Shown piece after piece: positions 7,166 to 12,237 of a DNA stretch of 64,000 nucleotides (the first letter of the stretch is position 1; each line of letters opens with the position of its first letter). The position numbers and the translations under genes were made by a program. Origin of the DNA: Ruminiclostridium papyrosolvens DSM 2782 (GTDB taxonomy: Bacteria; Bacillota; Clostridia; Acetivibrionales; DSM-1351). Below the pieces are notes generated by a model. That model saw only the letters and a list, made by a program, of their open reading frames with translations. It made no database searches and was not told the DNA's origin. The stretch is taken from NCBI RefSeq assembly GCF_029318685.1, contig NZ_CP119677.1, forward strand, positions 1,915,001 through 1,979,000, read 5' to 3'.

Positions 7166-7212
7166 TGGCAGGGGAGACAGGACTTGAACCCGCAGCCGAC
7201 GGTTTTGGAGTG
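7166..7212 (-). other. attL: 3' half of tRNA-Trp(CCA)
   Basis: Read on the minus strand, the sequence runs CTCCAAA (anticodon loop, anticodon CCA), ACCGT, a T-arm with TTCAAGT, then acceptor CTCCCCTG and an encoded CCA. The 5' half is absent: the sequence beyond 7212 cannot form the anticodon stem. This is the pattern left when a phage integrates in a tRNA gene and duplicates its 3' half. The 3' end faces left, so the phage lies to the right and the intact tRNA-Trp should sit at the far (attR) end, outside the window. Confidence 0.8.
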
Positions 7213-7358: not shown

Positions 7359-7382
7359 TATCTTTCGATGTATTAAACTAGT

Positions 7383-7410
7383 TTGATTTATTTAATACAT
7401 GCTATATAAT
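7383..7410 (+). promoter_or_regulatory. Promoter of agrB
   Basis: TTGATT (7383-7388), 16-nt spacer, TATAAT (7405-7410), giving a start near 7417 and a short leader before agrB. Confidence 0.65.
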
Positions 7411-7443
7411 TATTTTATTAATGATTTTAAATAGGAGTATAGA

Positions 7444-8061
7444 ATGAGAATAATAGAGAAATTATCATATAAAAGTGCTAATTATTTTGCTAAACAGCTC
7501 GGTCTAAATCATCAACAAAGAACAATACGCTATTTCGGGTTTCAATCATTGTATGGAGATGTAGTTAAAATCTTGATTATGGCAATAGTATCTTTAATAA
7601 TAAAATCATTTTTAGCAACTATGTTAGTTGCTTTTTCATTTGCTATTCTAAGAAGAAATGCAGGCGGGTTTCACATGAAAACTGAAATAGGTTGTATAAT
7701 ATTTACAACTTTAATTTGTGTAATTCCCGGAACCATAATCAGCTACTTTCAATTATTATCAAATATATTAACCATAATCATTTTAATAATTATATTTATT
7801 TTTTGCCATATATGCTTATTCAAATATGCTCCTAAGGGTTCTAAAAACAATATGATAACAGATAAAGATGAAATTCTAAAATTTAAAAAGAAGTCTATAA
7901 CAACACATCGGTTTTTATATATATGGGTTATTTTATTTCTTGTACTAAATAAAAATTACATATCTATATCAATAAGCATTGGTTGTATGTTGGAAGTTCT
8001 TACAATTTTACCGATAATTCAAAATACAAACAGAATGAAAAAGACAATCAAACTATATTGA
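7444..8061 (+). CDS. agrB: AgrB-family peptide-processing membrane protease
   Basis: Membrane cysteine endopeptidase that cuts and cyclises an AgrD precursor into a thiolactone signalling peptide. The 205-aa product has the hallmark AgrB stretch RRNAGGFHMKT. His77 and Cys84 are the catalytic pair, at the same positions reported for staphylococcal AgrB. Several hydrophobic segments follow (about 42-68, 84-104, 108-128, 155-165, 172-190). AGGAG lies 8 nt before ATG 7444. It is transcribed rightward from the phage end, converging on the agrD-like gene at 8141-8278. Its place inside attL makes it a phage-carried gene. Confidence 0.92.
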   Translation: MRIIEKLSYKSANYFAKQLGLNHQQRTIRYFGFQSLYGDVVKILIMAIVSLIIKSFLATMLVAFSFAILRRNAGGFHMKTEIGCIIFTTLICVIPGTIISYFQLLSNILTIIILIIIFIFCHICLFKYAPKGSKNNMITDKDEILKFKKKSITTHRFLYIWVILFLVLNKNYISISISIGCMLEVLTILPIIQNTNRMKKTIKLY

Positions 8062-8112
8062 CTGTCTAGCGTAAATTTGGTATTATTAATCGACAAGAAA
8101 TTATATTTATTG

Positions 8113-8142
8113 GCAACTTTCTCCGTAAAGTTGCTTTTTTTT
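8113..8142 (+). terminator. Terminator of agrB overlapping the end of agrD
   Basis: Stem GCAACTTT-CTCCGT-AAAGTTGC (8113-8134) followed by eight Ts. It ends the rightward agrB transcript, and its T-run touches the stop codon of the converging agrD gene. Confidence 0.85.
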
Positions 8143-8278
8143 ACTTTTTAATCTTTTTTAATGCTTTTGGAGTTTTAGGTTGATATCCCCAAAGGAAACA
8201 AAAATTGTCTGCTTTTGTTTCTGCAACTTTAGTAACTCCTGAATCAATAAGTGATAATATTTTTTTAGTGTTGTCCAT
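8141..8278 (-). CDS. agrD: AgrD-like cyclic peptide precursor
   Basis: A 45-aa precursor. The N-terminal part (MDNTKKILSLIDSGV) is a short amphipathic leader. The core NFCFLWGYQPKTP holds the single cysteine (Cys27), which in this family forms a thiolactone ring with a residue 4-5 positions on. A QP-x-x-P tail and a lysine-rich end follow, as in clostridial AgrD peptides. AAAGGAG lies 8 nt before the ATG. The start overlaps the last 14 nt of the upstream membrane-protein gene, so translation is probably coupled. Identification rests on the motif plus the adjacent agrB. Confidence 0.82.
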   Translation of the reverse strand: MDNTKKILSLIDSGVTKVAETKADNFCFLWGYQPKTPKALKKIKK

Positions 8279-9014
8279 TTTCAACACTCCTTTCTATATG
8301 ATATTTTGAAACCTTTGTTATAACCTTTATATAATGATATAATATCACAAAATTTAGAAGTCCACTACATGCACAACATAAACCTAGCAATATTTTTGTA
8401 TCCAAGCTAAATACTGGGAAATAAGCAATCACAATTTTAGTAAGATTTAGTTCAATGAAAAATAAAGTGAAAACAATAAATATAAATCCTTTAAGCCCAA
8501 TTTGATATTGCTTTAATTTTTGTATTACTGAGCTAAAGTTCCAAAAAGAAATTATAGCAATTATTTGTACGATTCTTTCAGGTATAAAACATAAAAATAT
8601 CTTTAGTGCCGGAGAGTTTAATAAATTAGCTTCGCTACCATTATAAAAATAGCGAATGCAGTAGGGGACATATAATGATTCAAAACTAATAATAAGAATG
8701 GAAAAAGCTGCTACACCTAACAACGATTCCATCCATGTAGTATTGTAGAAATATTTCAGTATTATGCAATATACTACCATATATGCAATTGATACTATAT
8801 TCATGCTAGGAATAAAAGTACCAATAAAAGAGCCAATAAATGAAACTATGCTCGCCAAAAATAATATTTTCAGTAAACTAATGATAAATTTGTTTGAATC
8901 ACATTTAAAAGGGACTTCACTTCCCTTGCCGATAACGACTAAAGAAAACATAAAACAAAGGAAAAATTGCGGTATTGATAAAATACAAGTGTTTAATATA
9001 CTAAAATTCTCCAT
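8265..9014 (-). CDS. AgrC-like seven-helix membrane protein without kinase domain
   Basis: A 249-aa integral membrane protein with about seven hydrophobic segments (near residues 5-28, 43-68, 72-92, 97-121, 137-160, 172-198 and 206-227). It ends about 20 residues after the last helix. This is the size and topology of the sensor half of AgrC-type receptors, but there is no H-box, DHp or GHKL ATPase region, and no response regulator gene nearby. The start at 9014 has GGAGG 7 nt upstream; an in-frame ATG at 9035 overlaps this signal's context and is less likely. It lies 44 nt downstream of the phage repressor and overlaps agrD. I infer a receptor for the AgrD peptide; other membrane roles, such as exclusion, are possible. 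Confidence 0.6.
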   Translation of the reverse strand: MENFSILNTCILSIPQFFLCFMFSLVVIGKGSEVPFKCDSNKFIISLLKILFLASIVSFIGSFIGTFIPSMNIVSIAYMVVYCIILKYFYNTTWMESLLGVAAFSILIISFESLYVPYCIRYFYNGSEANLLNSPALKIFLCFIPERIVQIIAIISFWNFSSVIQKLKQYQIGLKGFIFIVFTLFFIELNLTKIVIAYFPVFSLDTKILLGLCCACSGLLNFVILYHYIKVITKVSKYHIERSVENGQH

Positions 9015-9058
9015 AACAAACCTCCGTAAATTCATTTACATGACAAGAAATAAATTAA

Positions 9059-9631
9059 TTAAAGTTTTCTTGCAATAATTATATTATCCAATGGTATTCC
9101 AGAGTTTTTTATTCTTATTGCAATATTCATAAATTCTCTATTATCTAAATTTGCAGCGAATTTTATTAATTTGTTTTTTTCAGTGTTATCTTCAGAGTAT
9201 GGTTGATTCTGACCTAATAATTTATAAATACTAACACCAGAAAGATTAGCAATTTGGTTAATTGTATTTATATCTACTGACTTACCGTCTTCAATGTCTT
9301 TAATTTCTTTTACTTTTAAATCATTATATAAAGCAAATTCTTTCTGGGATAAATTCATGGTTCGTCTTAATTCTTTTATAGCTGAAGCTATATAAGTTAC
9401 ATCAACTGTATTTAACATATCATTAATGTCTTCAATATCACATCCTAACAAATAATCAATACTAACATTAAAAATCCTCCTTAGCTTTTTTAAATTTTCA
9501 ATACTGGGATACCTGCCTTCTTCTGCCAATAGTTTACTTATCGCTGATGGAGTAACTCCCAATTCGTTGGCTAAGTCGGCTGGCTTTAAATTAAACTTTT
9601 CCATCAACAATGCAAGTCTTCGAGAAAACAT
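9059..9631 (-). CDS. Phage repressor with two XRE-type HTH domains
   Basis: 190 aa. An N-terminal helix-turn-helix (about 5-60; KPADLANELGVTPSAISKLL) is followed by a second, more diverged one (about 80-138; LSQKEFALYNDLKVKEIKDI) and a short helical tail. There is no LexA-type protease domain, so SOS-style self-cleavage is not expected and another inducing signal is implied. It is divergent from the Cro-like gene across a 200-nt operator region and is the first gene of a leftward unit with the AgrC-like and AgrD genes. That order suggests the repressor and signalling genes are co-transcribed. Confidence 0.85.
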   Translation of the reverse strand: MFSRRLALLMEKFNLKPADLANELGVTPSAISKLLAEEGRYPSIENLKKLRRIFNVSIDYLLGCDIEDINDMLNTVDVTYIASAIKELRRTMNLSQKEFALYNDLKVKEIKDIEDGKSVDINTINQIANLSGVSIYKLLGQNQPYSEDNTEKNKLIKFAANLDNREFMNIAIRIKNSGIPLDNIIIARKL

Positions 9632-9664
9632 TTCAACTCCTCCATATATTATACTTTAAGTATA

Positions 9665-9693
9665 ATAATAGACTGGCAGTCAATAAATGTCAA
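9665..9693 (-). promoter_or_regulatory. Repressor promoter and operator region
   Basis: Minus-strand TTGACA (9688-9693), 17-nt spacer, TATTAT (9665-9670). A near-palindrome TATACTTTAAGTATA lies at 9648-9662, between promoter and gene. The elements GAACTATAGTCAA and GAATTATAGTCAA (near 9702 and 9764) are repeated in the intergenic region and are likely repressor or Cro operators. A rightward promoter must lie near 9730-9805, but I could not choose one sequence. Confidence 0.65.
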
Positions 9694-9838
9694 GAAAAAA
9701 TGAACTATAGTCAAAGAATGTTTAAAAAAATGGAATAATATTCATAAATCATCCATAATTATGAATTATAGTCAATATTCAAAATTGCTAATAATTGACT
9801 GATAGGATAATATGTTAATGAAAGGAAGTGATAAACAT

Positions 9839-10111
9839 TTGAGGAAAACAAAGGTAGATAAGTTAAATGCTTTAGGCAGACTTCGAGAAAATGTTGGATT
9901 AAAAAGGGAGGATGTTGAATCTAAAGTAAAAGCCCTACAAAGTGCAGAATTGAGTTGTTCTATCTCTTATCTTTGCAAATTAGAAAAACTAGGAACAGAC
10001 AAAAAACCTTCGTTACAGTTAGCTTTAGAGTTGTGTAAAATGTACGGTTGCAAGCTCGAGGATATATATCCAGATTTGAAAGAAAAACTTAGAGAGTATC
10101 AAGCTAGTTGA
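9839..10111 (+). CDS. Cro-like XRE-family regulator
   Basis: About 90 aa with a helix-turn-helix (LGRLRENVGLKREDVESKV, then SISYLCKLEK as recognition helix). First rightward gene opposite the repressor, the usual place of Cro. TTG 9839 has AAAGGAAG about 10 nt upstream; an in-frame ATG at 9812 would put the ribosome site inside the gene. Confidence 0.75.
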   Translation: MRKTKVDKLNALGRLRENVGLKREDVESKVKALQSAELSCSISYLCKLEKLGTDKKPSLQLALELCKMYGCKLEDIYPDLKEKLREYQAS

Positions 10112-10136: not shown

Positions 10137-10385
10137 ATGGAAGAAAAAAACTTAACAAAGGAACGTGTAACCTGGGATGCAAAGACTGCATCAAATTATT
10201 TAGGAATATCCTATGGATTCTTACTGAAATTGGCTAGACAAAAGGAAATACCGTTCATTCATGTCGGAAGAATATACTTGTTTCGCAAAGAATCATTGGA
10301 TATATGGTTAAGAAATCAAGAAACACAGGCAATCCAAACTGAATCCACACAGCTATACGGAAAGTTAAGAAAAGTTCAAGAATAA
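10137..10385 (+). CDS. Excisionase-family DNA-binding protein
   Basis: 82 aa with the MerR/Xis-type winged helix: WDAKTASNYLGISYGFLLKL, then IPFIHVGRIYLFRKESLDIWL. Such proteins act as recombination directionality factors or small regulators. The early position fits either role. A GC-AGG ribosome site lies 7 nt upstream. Confidence 0.7.
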   Translation: MEEKNLTKERVTWDAKTASNYLGISYGFLLKLARQKEIPFIHVGRIYLFRKESLDIWLRNQETQAIQTESTQLYGKLRKVQE

Positions 10386-11541: not shown

Positions 11542-12237
11542 TTGAACGAATTATCAGAATTAAACCAAATGACTTCAATGGAAATCGCAGAGGTAACTGG
11601 GAAACAACACCCACATGTAATGAGAGATATAAGAGATGAAATCGAAAAGCTTGTATCCGGTGGGATTGAGTACCAATCCAAATTTGGATTGGTTGAATAC
11701 AAAGATGCAAAAGGTGAAAAAAGACCATACTACATACTTACCAAAGAAGGAGTACTTCAATTAGCAGCCCGGTATGATGCTGTAGTCAGAGCGAAATTAA
11801 TTGAACTGGCCATGAAACATGAGCCTAAACCACAATCAATAGAAGACCTGATTATAATGCAAGCTCAGTCAATGAAAGATTTGAAATCCCAAGTCAATAC
11901 GTTGCAGTTAACTACTCAGACAATAAAAGATACTGTAATAAGCACACCGGATAAGTGGAGAGATGATATAAACCGTATGCTCAATAAGATTGTAAAGGCC
12001 GTTGGGAACTCGAAGTACCGGGAGTTAAAAACAGAGAGCTACAAACTACTGGAAGAACGTGCTCATGTTGATTTAAACCGCAGGCTTAACAATCAAAGAT
12101 ACAGGATGAAGATTGAAGGAGCTGCGAAATCAGCAATAGATAAAGTAAATAAGATGGACATTGTTGAATCAGACCCAAAGCTTCGTGAAATATATTCAGC
12201 AATTGTAAAAGAGTACACAATCAAATTTGTAGCCTGA
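11542..12237 (+). CDS. Rha-family phage regulatory protein
   Basis: 231 aa. The N-terminal Rha DNA-binding domain shows MTSMEIAEVTGKQHPHVMRDI and YYILTKEGVLQLAARYDAVVRAKLI. The C-terminal half is helical and basic, resembling the antirepressor-type tails paired with Rha or BRO domains. Rha proteins modulate phage growth under host regulators. The TTG start has AAAGGAGG 10 nt upstream. It could act as an antirepressor for the lysogenic switch. Confidence 0.85.
   Translation: MNELSELNQMTSMEIAEVTGKQHPHVMRDIRDEIEKLVSGGIEYQSKFGLVEYKDAKGEKRPYYILTKEGVLQLAARYDAVVRAKLIELAMKHEPKPQSIEDLIIMQAQSMKDLKSQVNTLQLTTQTIKDTVISTPDKWRDDINRMLNKIVKAVGNSKYRELKTESYKLLEERAHVDLNRRLNNQRYRMKIEGAAKSAIDKVNKMDIVESDPKLREIYSAIVKEYTIKFVA

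Follow-up and report, generated by a model that had tools for sequence, protein, structure and literature searches.

The analysed DNA (the window) was a stretch of 64,000 nucleotides of Ruminiclostridium papyrosolvens DSM 2782, corresponding to G000:C1:1915001-1979000 of a 5.03-Mb genome; the 11 genomes of its family represented one genus. A prophage beginning near the left end of the window was found to carry an agr-type module composed of a peptide-processing protease gene (agrB), a signal precursor gene (agrD) and the gene of an AgrC-like sensor without a kinase, the last two of which were located behind the phage repressor on the same strand. Sensors of this kind recurred in other clostridia beside AgrD genes and, often, beside a regulator of the XRE type. 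The module comprised the following features:

7444-8061, plus strand: agrB, a peptide-processing membrane protease of 205 amino acids (Pfam AgrB, 116 bits, cut-off 23)
8141-8278, minus strand: agrD, 45 amino acids (TIGR04223, 47.2 bits, cut-off 19; aligned with 16 other AgrDs)
8265-9014, minus strand: kinase-less AgrC-like sensor, 249 amino acids, seven longer helices (matches AgrC sensor domains by profile; N-terminal part homologous to kinase-bearing proteins; AlphaFold2 model)
9059-9631, minus strand: phage repressor, 190 amino acids, with two helix-turn-helix (HTH) stretches (HTH_3, 63.5 bits; PHROG transcriptional regulator)
9062-9181, minus strand: C-terminal tail of the repressor (last 40 residues), common to sensor-linked XREs (match to profile A9, which includes it; held-out tests are given below)

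The initial annotation had named agrB with His77 and Cys84, and the Pfam match agreed with it; both residues were invariant across 10 aligned AgrBs. The peptide gene, previously called AgrD-like, was identified by TIGR04223 as a true AgrD, the predicted ring of which was C27-F-L-W-G31, followed by YQPKTPKAL. The previously described order also followed from the open reading frames (ORFs): on one strand, the repressor was succeeded by a 44-nt gap (9058 to 9015), the sensor, a 14-nt overlap (8278 to 8265) and agrD, figures that assume ATG starts at 9014 for the sensor and at 8278 for agrD. The earliest start codons would give a sensor of 256 amino acids (to 9035) and an AgrD of 48 amino acids (to 8287), and the relatives favoured the inner starts. 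The agrB gene was convergent to this strand. No AgrA (LytTR response regulator) was seen by eye among the window ORFs of at least 90 amino acids and those of the right prophage end, the profile scans having covered the module proteins only.

The sensor showed no Pfam match at an E of 1 or better, and its best PHROG (E 0.05) and NCBIfam (E 5) matches were at chance level. A histidine-kinase domain was missing, as no HATPase was present in the Pfam scan and the reading frame stopped after the last helix. A profile of 23 kinase-less relatives was compared by hhalign with the sensor domains of AgrB-linked AgrC kinases and matched them at 92% (E 6e-7), whereas 0.6%, that is, no match, was obtained against AgrB. 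In genome searches, the sensor profile also matched four mutually similar proteins of 452-453 amino acids containing HATPase and SPOB_a, and the alignment extended over their N-terminal part. The window sensor scored 257 bits against profile A1, being itself a member of that profile, and a single-sequence search with it reached distant relatives at 1e-7. The AlphaFold2 model (pLDDT 84, pTM 0.78; predicted local distance difference test and template modelling score, respectively) contained seven longer helices; Foldseek searches of it against PDB and BFVD returned nothing at E 0.001 or better, and a PDB sequence search gave no match. These sequence comparisons identify the sensor as a homologue of the sensing half of AgrC-type kinases; the profile match and the N-terminal homology thus bore out the earlier description of a membrane protein shaped like that half. 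A local truncation was considered as the origin of the missing kinase and was rejected, since kinase-less versions recurred as a family. Absence of the kinase characterizes a family that often has an XRE regulator as neighbour, and is not peculiar to the window.

Profile A1 had matches in 27 of the 58 genomes of the order, representing 13 of 30 genera, with no frame longer than 359 amino acids. For profile A6, 391 genomes sampled from the class were searched with only six candidates scored per genome, and 33 had matches, some of which were short or kinase-bearing. After removal of four kinase-bearing rows from 66, a set of 62 kinase-less loci was obtained from 33 genomes and 17 genera (frames of 137-336 amino acids, some loci, with the 137-residue frame as the shortest, being cut by contig ends). 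Prophage loci were included, and the set took in the window module, G004, G005, L028 and L148. Left out were the second prophage copy, G029:C789, G032:C51 (a 79-residue fragment), G010:C26 (a near copy of G001:C9) and the mostly short or weak class-level matches of G209, G187, G165, G079, G186, G086, G337, G112, G120, G093, G362, G164, G156 and G390.

An AgrD-like gene followed the sensor directly on the same strand at 48 of the 62 loci. An XRE regulator was located within 400 bp of the sensor at 38 loci, upstream of it in the same orientation at 15 and downstream of it in convergent orientation at 23; an AgrB lay within 1 kb at 15 loci. In 20 random 20-kb control regions of the same genome group, an XRE lay no more than 400 bp from one of 66 genes of matched size, although the XRE model used for both counts was trained on linked XREs and may lean low in the controls; neither the AgrD pattern nor AgrB was found in these regions. 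The independent Pfam HTH_3 model gave 43 matches in the whole 5.03-Mb genome. Loci of sister species were not independent and hence were also counted per genus, and an XRE-linked locus was present in 14 of the 17 genera. AgrDs recognized by TIGR04223 stood directly behind kinase-less sensors in four of five cases in the window's genome (two being the prophage copies), in the single case in G004, in two of five in G005 and in two of three in G024; the remaining three of G005 were near kinase genes. The window module itself combined a kinase-less sensor, an AgrD directly 3' of it and an adjacent, tail-bearing XRE.

Further, the sensor-linked XREs were found to possess a common C-terminal segment of about 40 residues. 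A model built from 32 of the 40 linked XREs, with the prophage repressors held out, recognized the repressors of the window (8e-5), G004 (3e-8) and G005 (1.4e-9); the window value became 6e-3 when L028 and L148 were held out as well. The eight XREs not used for training were the three prophage repressors, L024 and L134 (where the nearest XRE was of another, 108-residue type), and L142, L163 and L181 (tail unclear by eye). Of 26 unlinked XREs sampled at 20 sites of the window's genome, none gave a tail match at E below 1e-2 (best value 0.036). In leave-one-out tests, 38 of the 40 linked XREs outscored all 26 unlinked ones, L134 by 0.1 bit only, while L024 and L163 failed. Across 15 whole genomes, 41 tail matches were recorded, 27 of them within 4 kb of a sensor, in regions amounting to 0.47% of the sequence; at E below 1e-10, this applied to 23 of 26. 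Training rows were among these matches, and the telling point was the small number of strong matches elsewhere (3 of 26). One apparently unlinked match, G009:C20, adjoined an ORF that read as AgrB by eye. The window's genome contained four tail matches, two of which were copies of the window repressor, and all lay within 3 kb of a sensor. The 26 unlinked XREs and the 15 genomes did not bear out the possibility of a tail present in every XRE. Such a conserved tail suggests a protein contact.

The same gene order had been predicted for other clostridial prophages. It was found in two of them, G004 and G005 (both Ruminiclostridium), where agrB, agrD, the sensor, the repressor and a cro-like gene were arranged as in the window, and in a rearranged form in G007, likewise a Ruminiclostridium. 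The integrases were of the tyrosine type in G004 and of the large serine type in G005. Eleven ORFs of the window prophage, module genes included, matched G004 when 120 kb of the latter were compared; the G005 comparison covered 20 kb. Serine replaced the ring cysteine in the AgrDs of G004 and G005. Among the three prophages, the sensor and agrD showed a nonsynonymous divergence (dN) of 0.18-0.26 against a synonymous divergence (dS) of at least 1, often saturated. In the G007 prophage (L148; G007:C1, about 1328500-1332300), recognizable by its terminase and tape-measure genes, an XRE was followed by the sensor, with AgrB, DUF5317 and integrase genes opposite. The contig G009:C37 (L028), a prophage or a fragment of one, resembled this arrangement, and a DUF5317 membrane protein adjoined AgrB in both. 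Single-sequence searches with AgrB or the sensor in INPHARED and IMG/VR gave nothing. The sensor profile detected one IMG/VR contig, 2711768659_000002, with the ORFs of the G004 prophage, and the AgrB profile had no match in IMG/VR; AgrBs of two other loci had weak matches, with E values of 5e-5 at best, in six faecal phage records without annotation.

A chromosomal sensor of the same family (L165 / L061) was located in G024, which is presumably C. thermocellum ATCC 27405. An AgrD was positioned 83 bp behind this sensor, and no XRE or AgrB occurred within 4 kb; in place of an XRE, a conserved amidotransferase-like gene and a small ORF were nearby. A lactone pentapeptide derived from the AgrD Clo1313_2818 is secreted by C. 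thermocellum, as confirmed by liquid chromatography with tandem mass spectrometry, the precursor being cut at A24/S25 to give the ring S25-F29, followed by Y30 and P35 (Verbeke et al. 2017, PMC5322536). Its authors gave no candidate for AgrB, AgrC or AgrA and no receptor. The G024 AgrD carried exactly the landmark residues given there for Clo1313_2818. This match, together with the adjoining sensor, indicates that such peptides are made and that the sensor is a candidate receptor. As in the window module, the AgrD gene of G024 was directly 3' of a kinase-less sensor; unlike that module, this locus is chromosomal.

The attachment site, the control region and the nearby phage genes were assigned as follows:

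7166-7210, no strand: attL core, 45 bp of the tRNA-Trp 3' end (repeated at 69938-69982 and in the intact tRNA-Trp gene)
7368-7410, plus strand: agrB promoter-like site TTGATT-16-TATAAT at 7383-7410, overlapped by a 10-nt inverted repeat, 7368-7377 / 7391-7400 (consensus scan and repeat search)
8042-8135, both strands: convergent terminator-like hairpins behind agrD (8067-8042, minus) and behind agrB (8112-8135, plus) (terminator scan)
9632-9811: repressor/cro control region, 180 bp, with repeats 9700-9714 and 9761-9775, and 9663-9675 and 9789-9801
9693-9665, minus strand: repressor promoter-like site TTGACA-17-TATTAT, 11/12, the top-scoring minus-strand site of the stretch
9671-9681: palindrome GACTGGCAGTC between the -35 and -10 elements of the repressor promoter-like site (repeat search)
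9812-10111, plus strand: cro-like gene with an HTH, transcribed away from the repressor (HTH_31, E 8e-4, which does not reach the model cut-off; G004 and G005 contain relatives)
10137-10385, plus strand: excisionase-like HTH_17 gene (36.7 bits)
11542-12237, plus strand: Rha-type antirepressor (Phage_pRha, 63.9 bits; PHROG anti-repressor)

The attL named in the initial annotation was upheld by both duplicates of the 45-bp segment of the tRNA-Trp 3' end, and the prophage ran from this segment up to 69937 (window coordinates), after which a second copy started. The same annotation had placed the module where an integrase is usual, a misleading remark, since the integrase, a tyrosine recombinase, was found at the right prophage end (68346-69797, window coordinates), outside the window. 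Hence, it would adjoin agrB across attP in the circular phage. Two prophage copies of 62,772 bp were arranged head-to-tail at one tRNA-Trp site (window 7155-64000, continuing to 132752), identical save for gaps at the alignment edge, with the intact tRNA-Trp positioned after the second copy; this represents either a real tandem lysogen or an assembly artefact. A phage ORF of 1998 residues without an assigned function (59880-65876) extended beyond the window end.

The palindrome GACTGGCAGTC was identical in G004 and was not seen in G005, and the repeat motif TATAGTCAA of the window prophage was absent from the control regions of both. The agrB promoter-like site and its inverted repeat are scan results and not evidence of function; 35 promoter-like sites were recorded against 20.9 in shuffled sequences, so that single sites mean little. 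Apart from a weak site in the sensor gene, the promoter and terminator scan was compatible with one repressor-sensor-agrD transcript. The Rha-type antirepressor is a possible other route to derepression. The AlphaFold2 model of the repressor (pTM 0.47, tail of low confidence) was not used as evidence.

Phage peptide signalling is known from arbitrium (AimR-AimP-AimX) of Bacillus phages, where a linear peptide is imported and bound by an intracellular receptor. The idea in common is a phage peptide signal bearing on lysis-lysogeny, and the window module differs by a predicted cyclic peptide and a membrane receptor; no AimR was seen by eye in the lysogeny region examined, where no AimR search was made. 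The module shares AgrB and AgrD, by curated models, with agr (AgrB, AgrD, AgrC kinase, AgrA), and its sensor is homologous to AgrC sensor domains. Unlike agr, it contains no kinase and no AgrA, its agrB is convergent and separate, and an XRE repressor belongs to the unit. The C. difficile phage phiCDHM1 was correctly cited in the initial annotation as having a kinase-bearing agrC: its agr3 genes comprise agrB, agrD and an agrC-like gene encoding a HATPase domain, located near an endolysin gene and not behind the repressor (PMC3901668). The same paper (2014) mentions AgrB, a putative AgrD and membrane proteins without HATPase in the Paenibacillus (now Brevibacillus) phages Davies, Abouo and Emery. 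In Davies (KC595518) and Abouo (KC595517), we found the cassette between the integrase and the repressor, beside an XRE gene (gp51 and gp49, respectively); for Emery (KC595516), the cassette start was examined. The Davies and Abouo cassettes differ from the window module in lying on the strand opposite to the repressor; the AgrD is without the QPKxPK pattern, and the Davies membrane proteins did not match the sensor profile. With its extra XRE, the Davies/Abouo cassette is possibly an independent parallel. A kinase-less AgrC-XRE pair was not reported in the literature searched, from which most subscription papers and all preprints were outside coverage. New here are the homology of the sensor to the AgrC half and its kinase-less family, the link of this family to AgrD and XRE genes, the tail common to these XREs and the prophage repressors, the recurrence of the module in other prophages and the connection with the C. 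thermocellum peptide; kinase-less AgrC-like phage proteins had been mentioned in 2014.

That sensor, AgrD and tail-bearing XRE recur together points to direct control of the XRE by the sensor. We proposed a one-component agr system in which a kinase-less receptor acts directly on an XRE regulator and which phages have adopted as a lysogeny switch; from the sequence evidence, this proposal was considered to have an even chance of being correct. AgrB would cut and cyclise AgrD into a predicted Cys-Phe-Leu-Trp-Gly thiolactone, which would exit the cell and bind the membrane sensor on the same or neighbouring lysogens. Having no kinase, the sensor would signal without an intermediate to the repressor encoded on the same transcript, probably by attaching to the repressor tail at the inner membrane face and thus holding or releasing the repressor. 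A parallel for the membrane capture and release of a regulator is Mlc, which is captured by PtsG in E. coli. Provided that lysogens produce the repressor, the sensor and the signal precursor jointly, the amount of peptide would follow lysogen density. Most likely, high peptide would promote repression and lysogeny, while at low peptide the unliganded sensor would weaken repression; the direction is not given by the sequence, and the peptide was expected to favour lysogeny by analogy with arbitrium. The sequence itself shows which genes are present and in what order, their families, the recurrence of the module among prophages, the association of kinase-less sensors with AgrD and XRE genes, and the common tail; we infer secretion of the phage peptide, its binding to the receptor, the sensor-repressor contact, co-transcription and the direction of the effect. 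A role of the peptide in reporting prophage density and in the lysis-lysogeny choice, as the initial annotation had suggested, is plausible, and that suggestion is strengthened in kind, since by gene content and order the module is a recurring signalling cassette in which the regulator happens to be a phage repressor.

The absence of a peptidase domain from the repressor, which contained HTH domains only in Pfam, was counted in favour of this direct control, while several observations weighed against it. A single weak minus-strand terminator-like site (8656-8631) was located inside the sensor gene, within the repressor-to-agrD interval. The 23-relative sensor profile matched a second AgrC clade at only 74% (3e-5). 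No XRE was present within 400 bp at 24 of the 62 loci, the C. thermocellum-like one included, and the tail match of the window repressor was the weakest among the prophages. An IS3-like element (by eye) separated the repressor from the sensor in G005, and the G007 and G009:C37 sensors had no recognizable AgrD next to them. The G004 prophage (G004:C1:156358-161500) contained one XRE/cro-type pair close to its integrase and another that accompanied the agr module, and a separate CI/cro pair stood alongside the module in G007; therefore, the immunity switch in these prophages is not necessarily the module.

Genes located between an integrase and a repressor are frequently cargo. Accordingly, the agr genes might serve lysogenic conversion, riding behind a repressor expressed in lysogens, the peptide acting on host receptors or behaviour and the sensor making no contact with the repressor. 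The CI/cro pair of G007 agrees with this, as does the presence of four other AgrBs and AgrC-type kinases in the host genome, and host-directed roles were proposed for phiCDHM1 by its authors (PMC3901668). Nevertheless, we regarded it as rather unlikely, given that the sensor-XRE linkage recurs outside phages, that the prophage repressors bear the tail of sensor-linked XREs and that a different ring is predicted for the module than for the two other kinase-less loci in the host. It is improbable that the membrane protein is a partner or immunity protein in AgrD maturation or export, tied to the XRE by shared regulation only: AgrB accompanied far fewer sensors (15 of 62) than AgrD did (48 of 62), so that something may replace it, but homology links the protein to histidine-kinase sensor halves, and the conserved XRE tail suggests contact between proteins.

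A sensor without a kinase, expressed, if at all, together with the repressor in lysogens, could also act as a decoy that soaks up peptide or blocks superinfection with no input to the repressor. The module has retained its own AgrD and AgrB beside the sensor, and a decoy would leave the recurrent XRE partner unexplained, which made this decidedly improbable. Lacking both a kinase and a response regulator, the module might be taken for the decaying remnant of an ordinary agr locus, an idea that is scarcely credible with a dN of about 0.2 against a dS of at least 1 for the sensor and agrD in three prophages, and with the 62 kinase-less loci examined being spread over 17 genera.

If direct control of the repressor by the sensor is true, phages would communicate on lysis-lysogeny by agr chemistry instead of arbitrium, using a receptor type that needs neither a kinase nor peptide import. 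The role of phage-borne agr genes, raised in 2014 for phiCDHM1, would become testable, and so would the receptor of the C. thermocellum ring peptide, for which the authors of PMC5322536 found no candidate. The predicted rings are short and their synthesis is feasible, so that prophage induction in cellulose-degrading clostridia would be open to direct probing. More broadly, and more tentatively, Gram-positive bacteria may possess a further mode of ring-peptide sensing, in which a kinase-less membrane receptor passes the signal directly to an XRE regulator through a conserved tail; this mode would occur widely across the order to which Ruminiclostridium and C. thermocellum belong, and its use with a phage repressor as the effector would be an agr-based counterpart of arbitrium.

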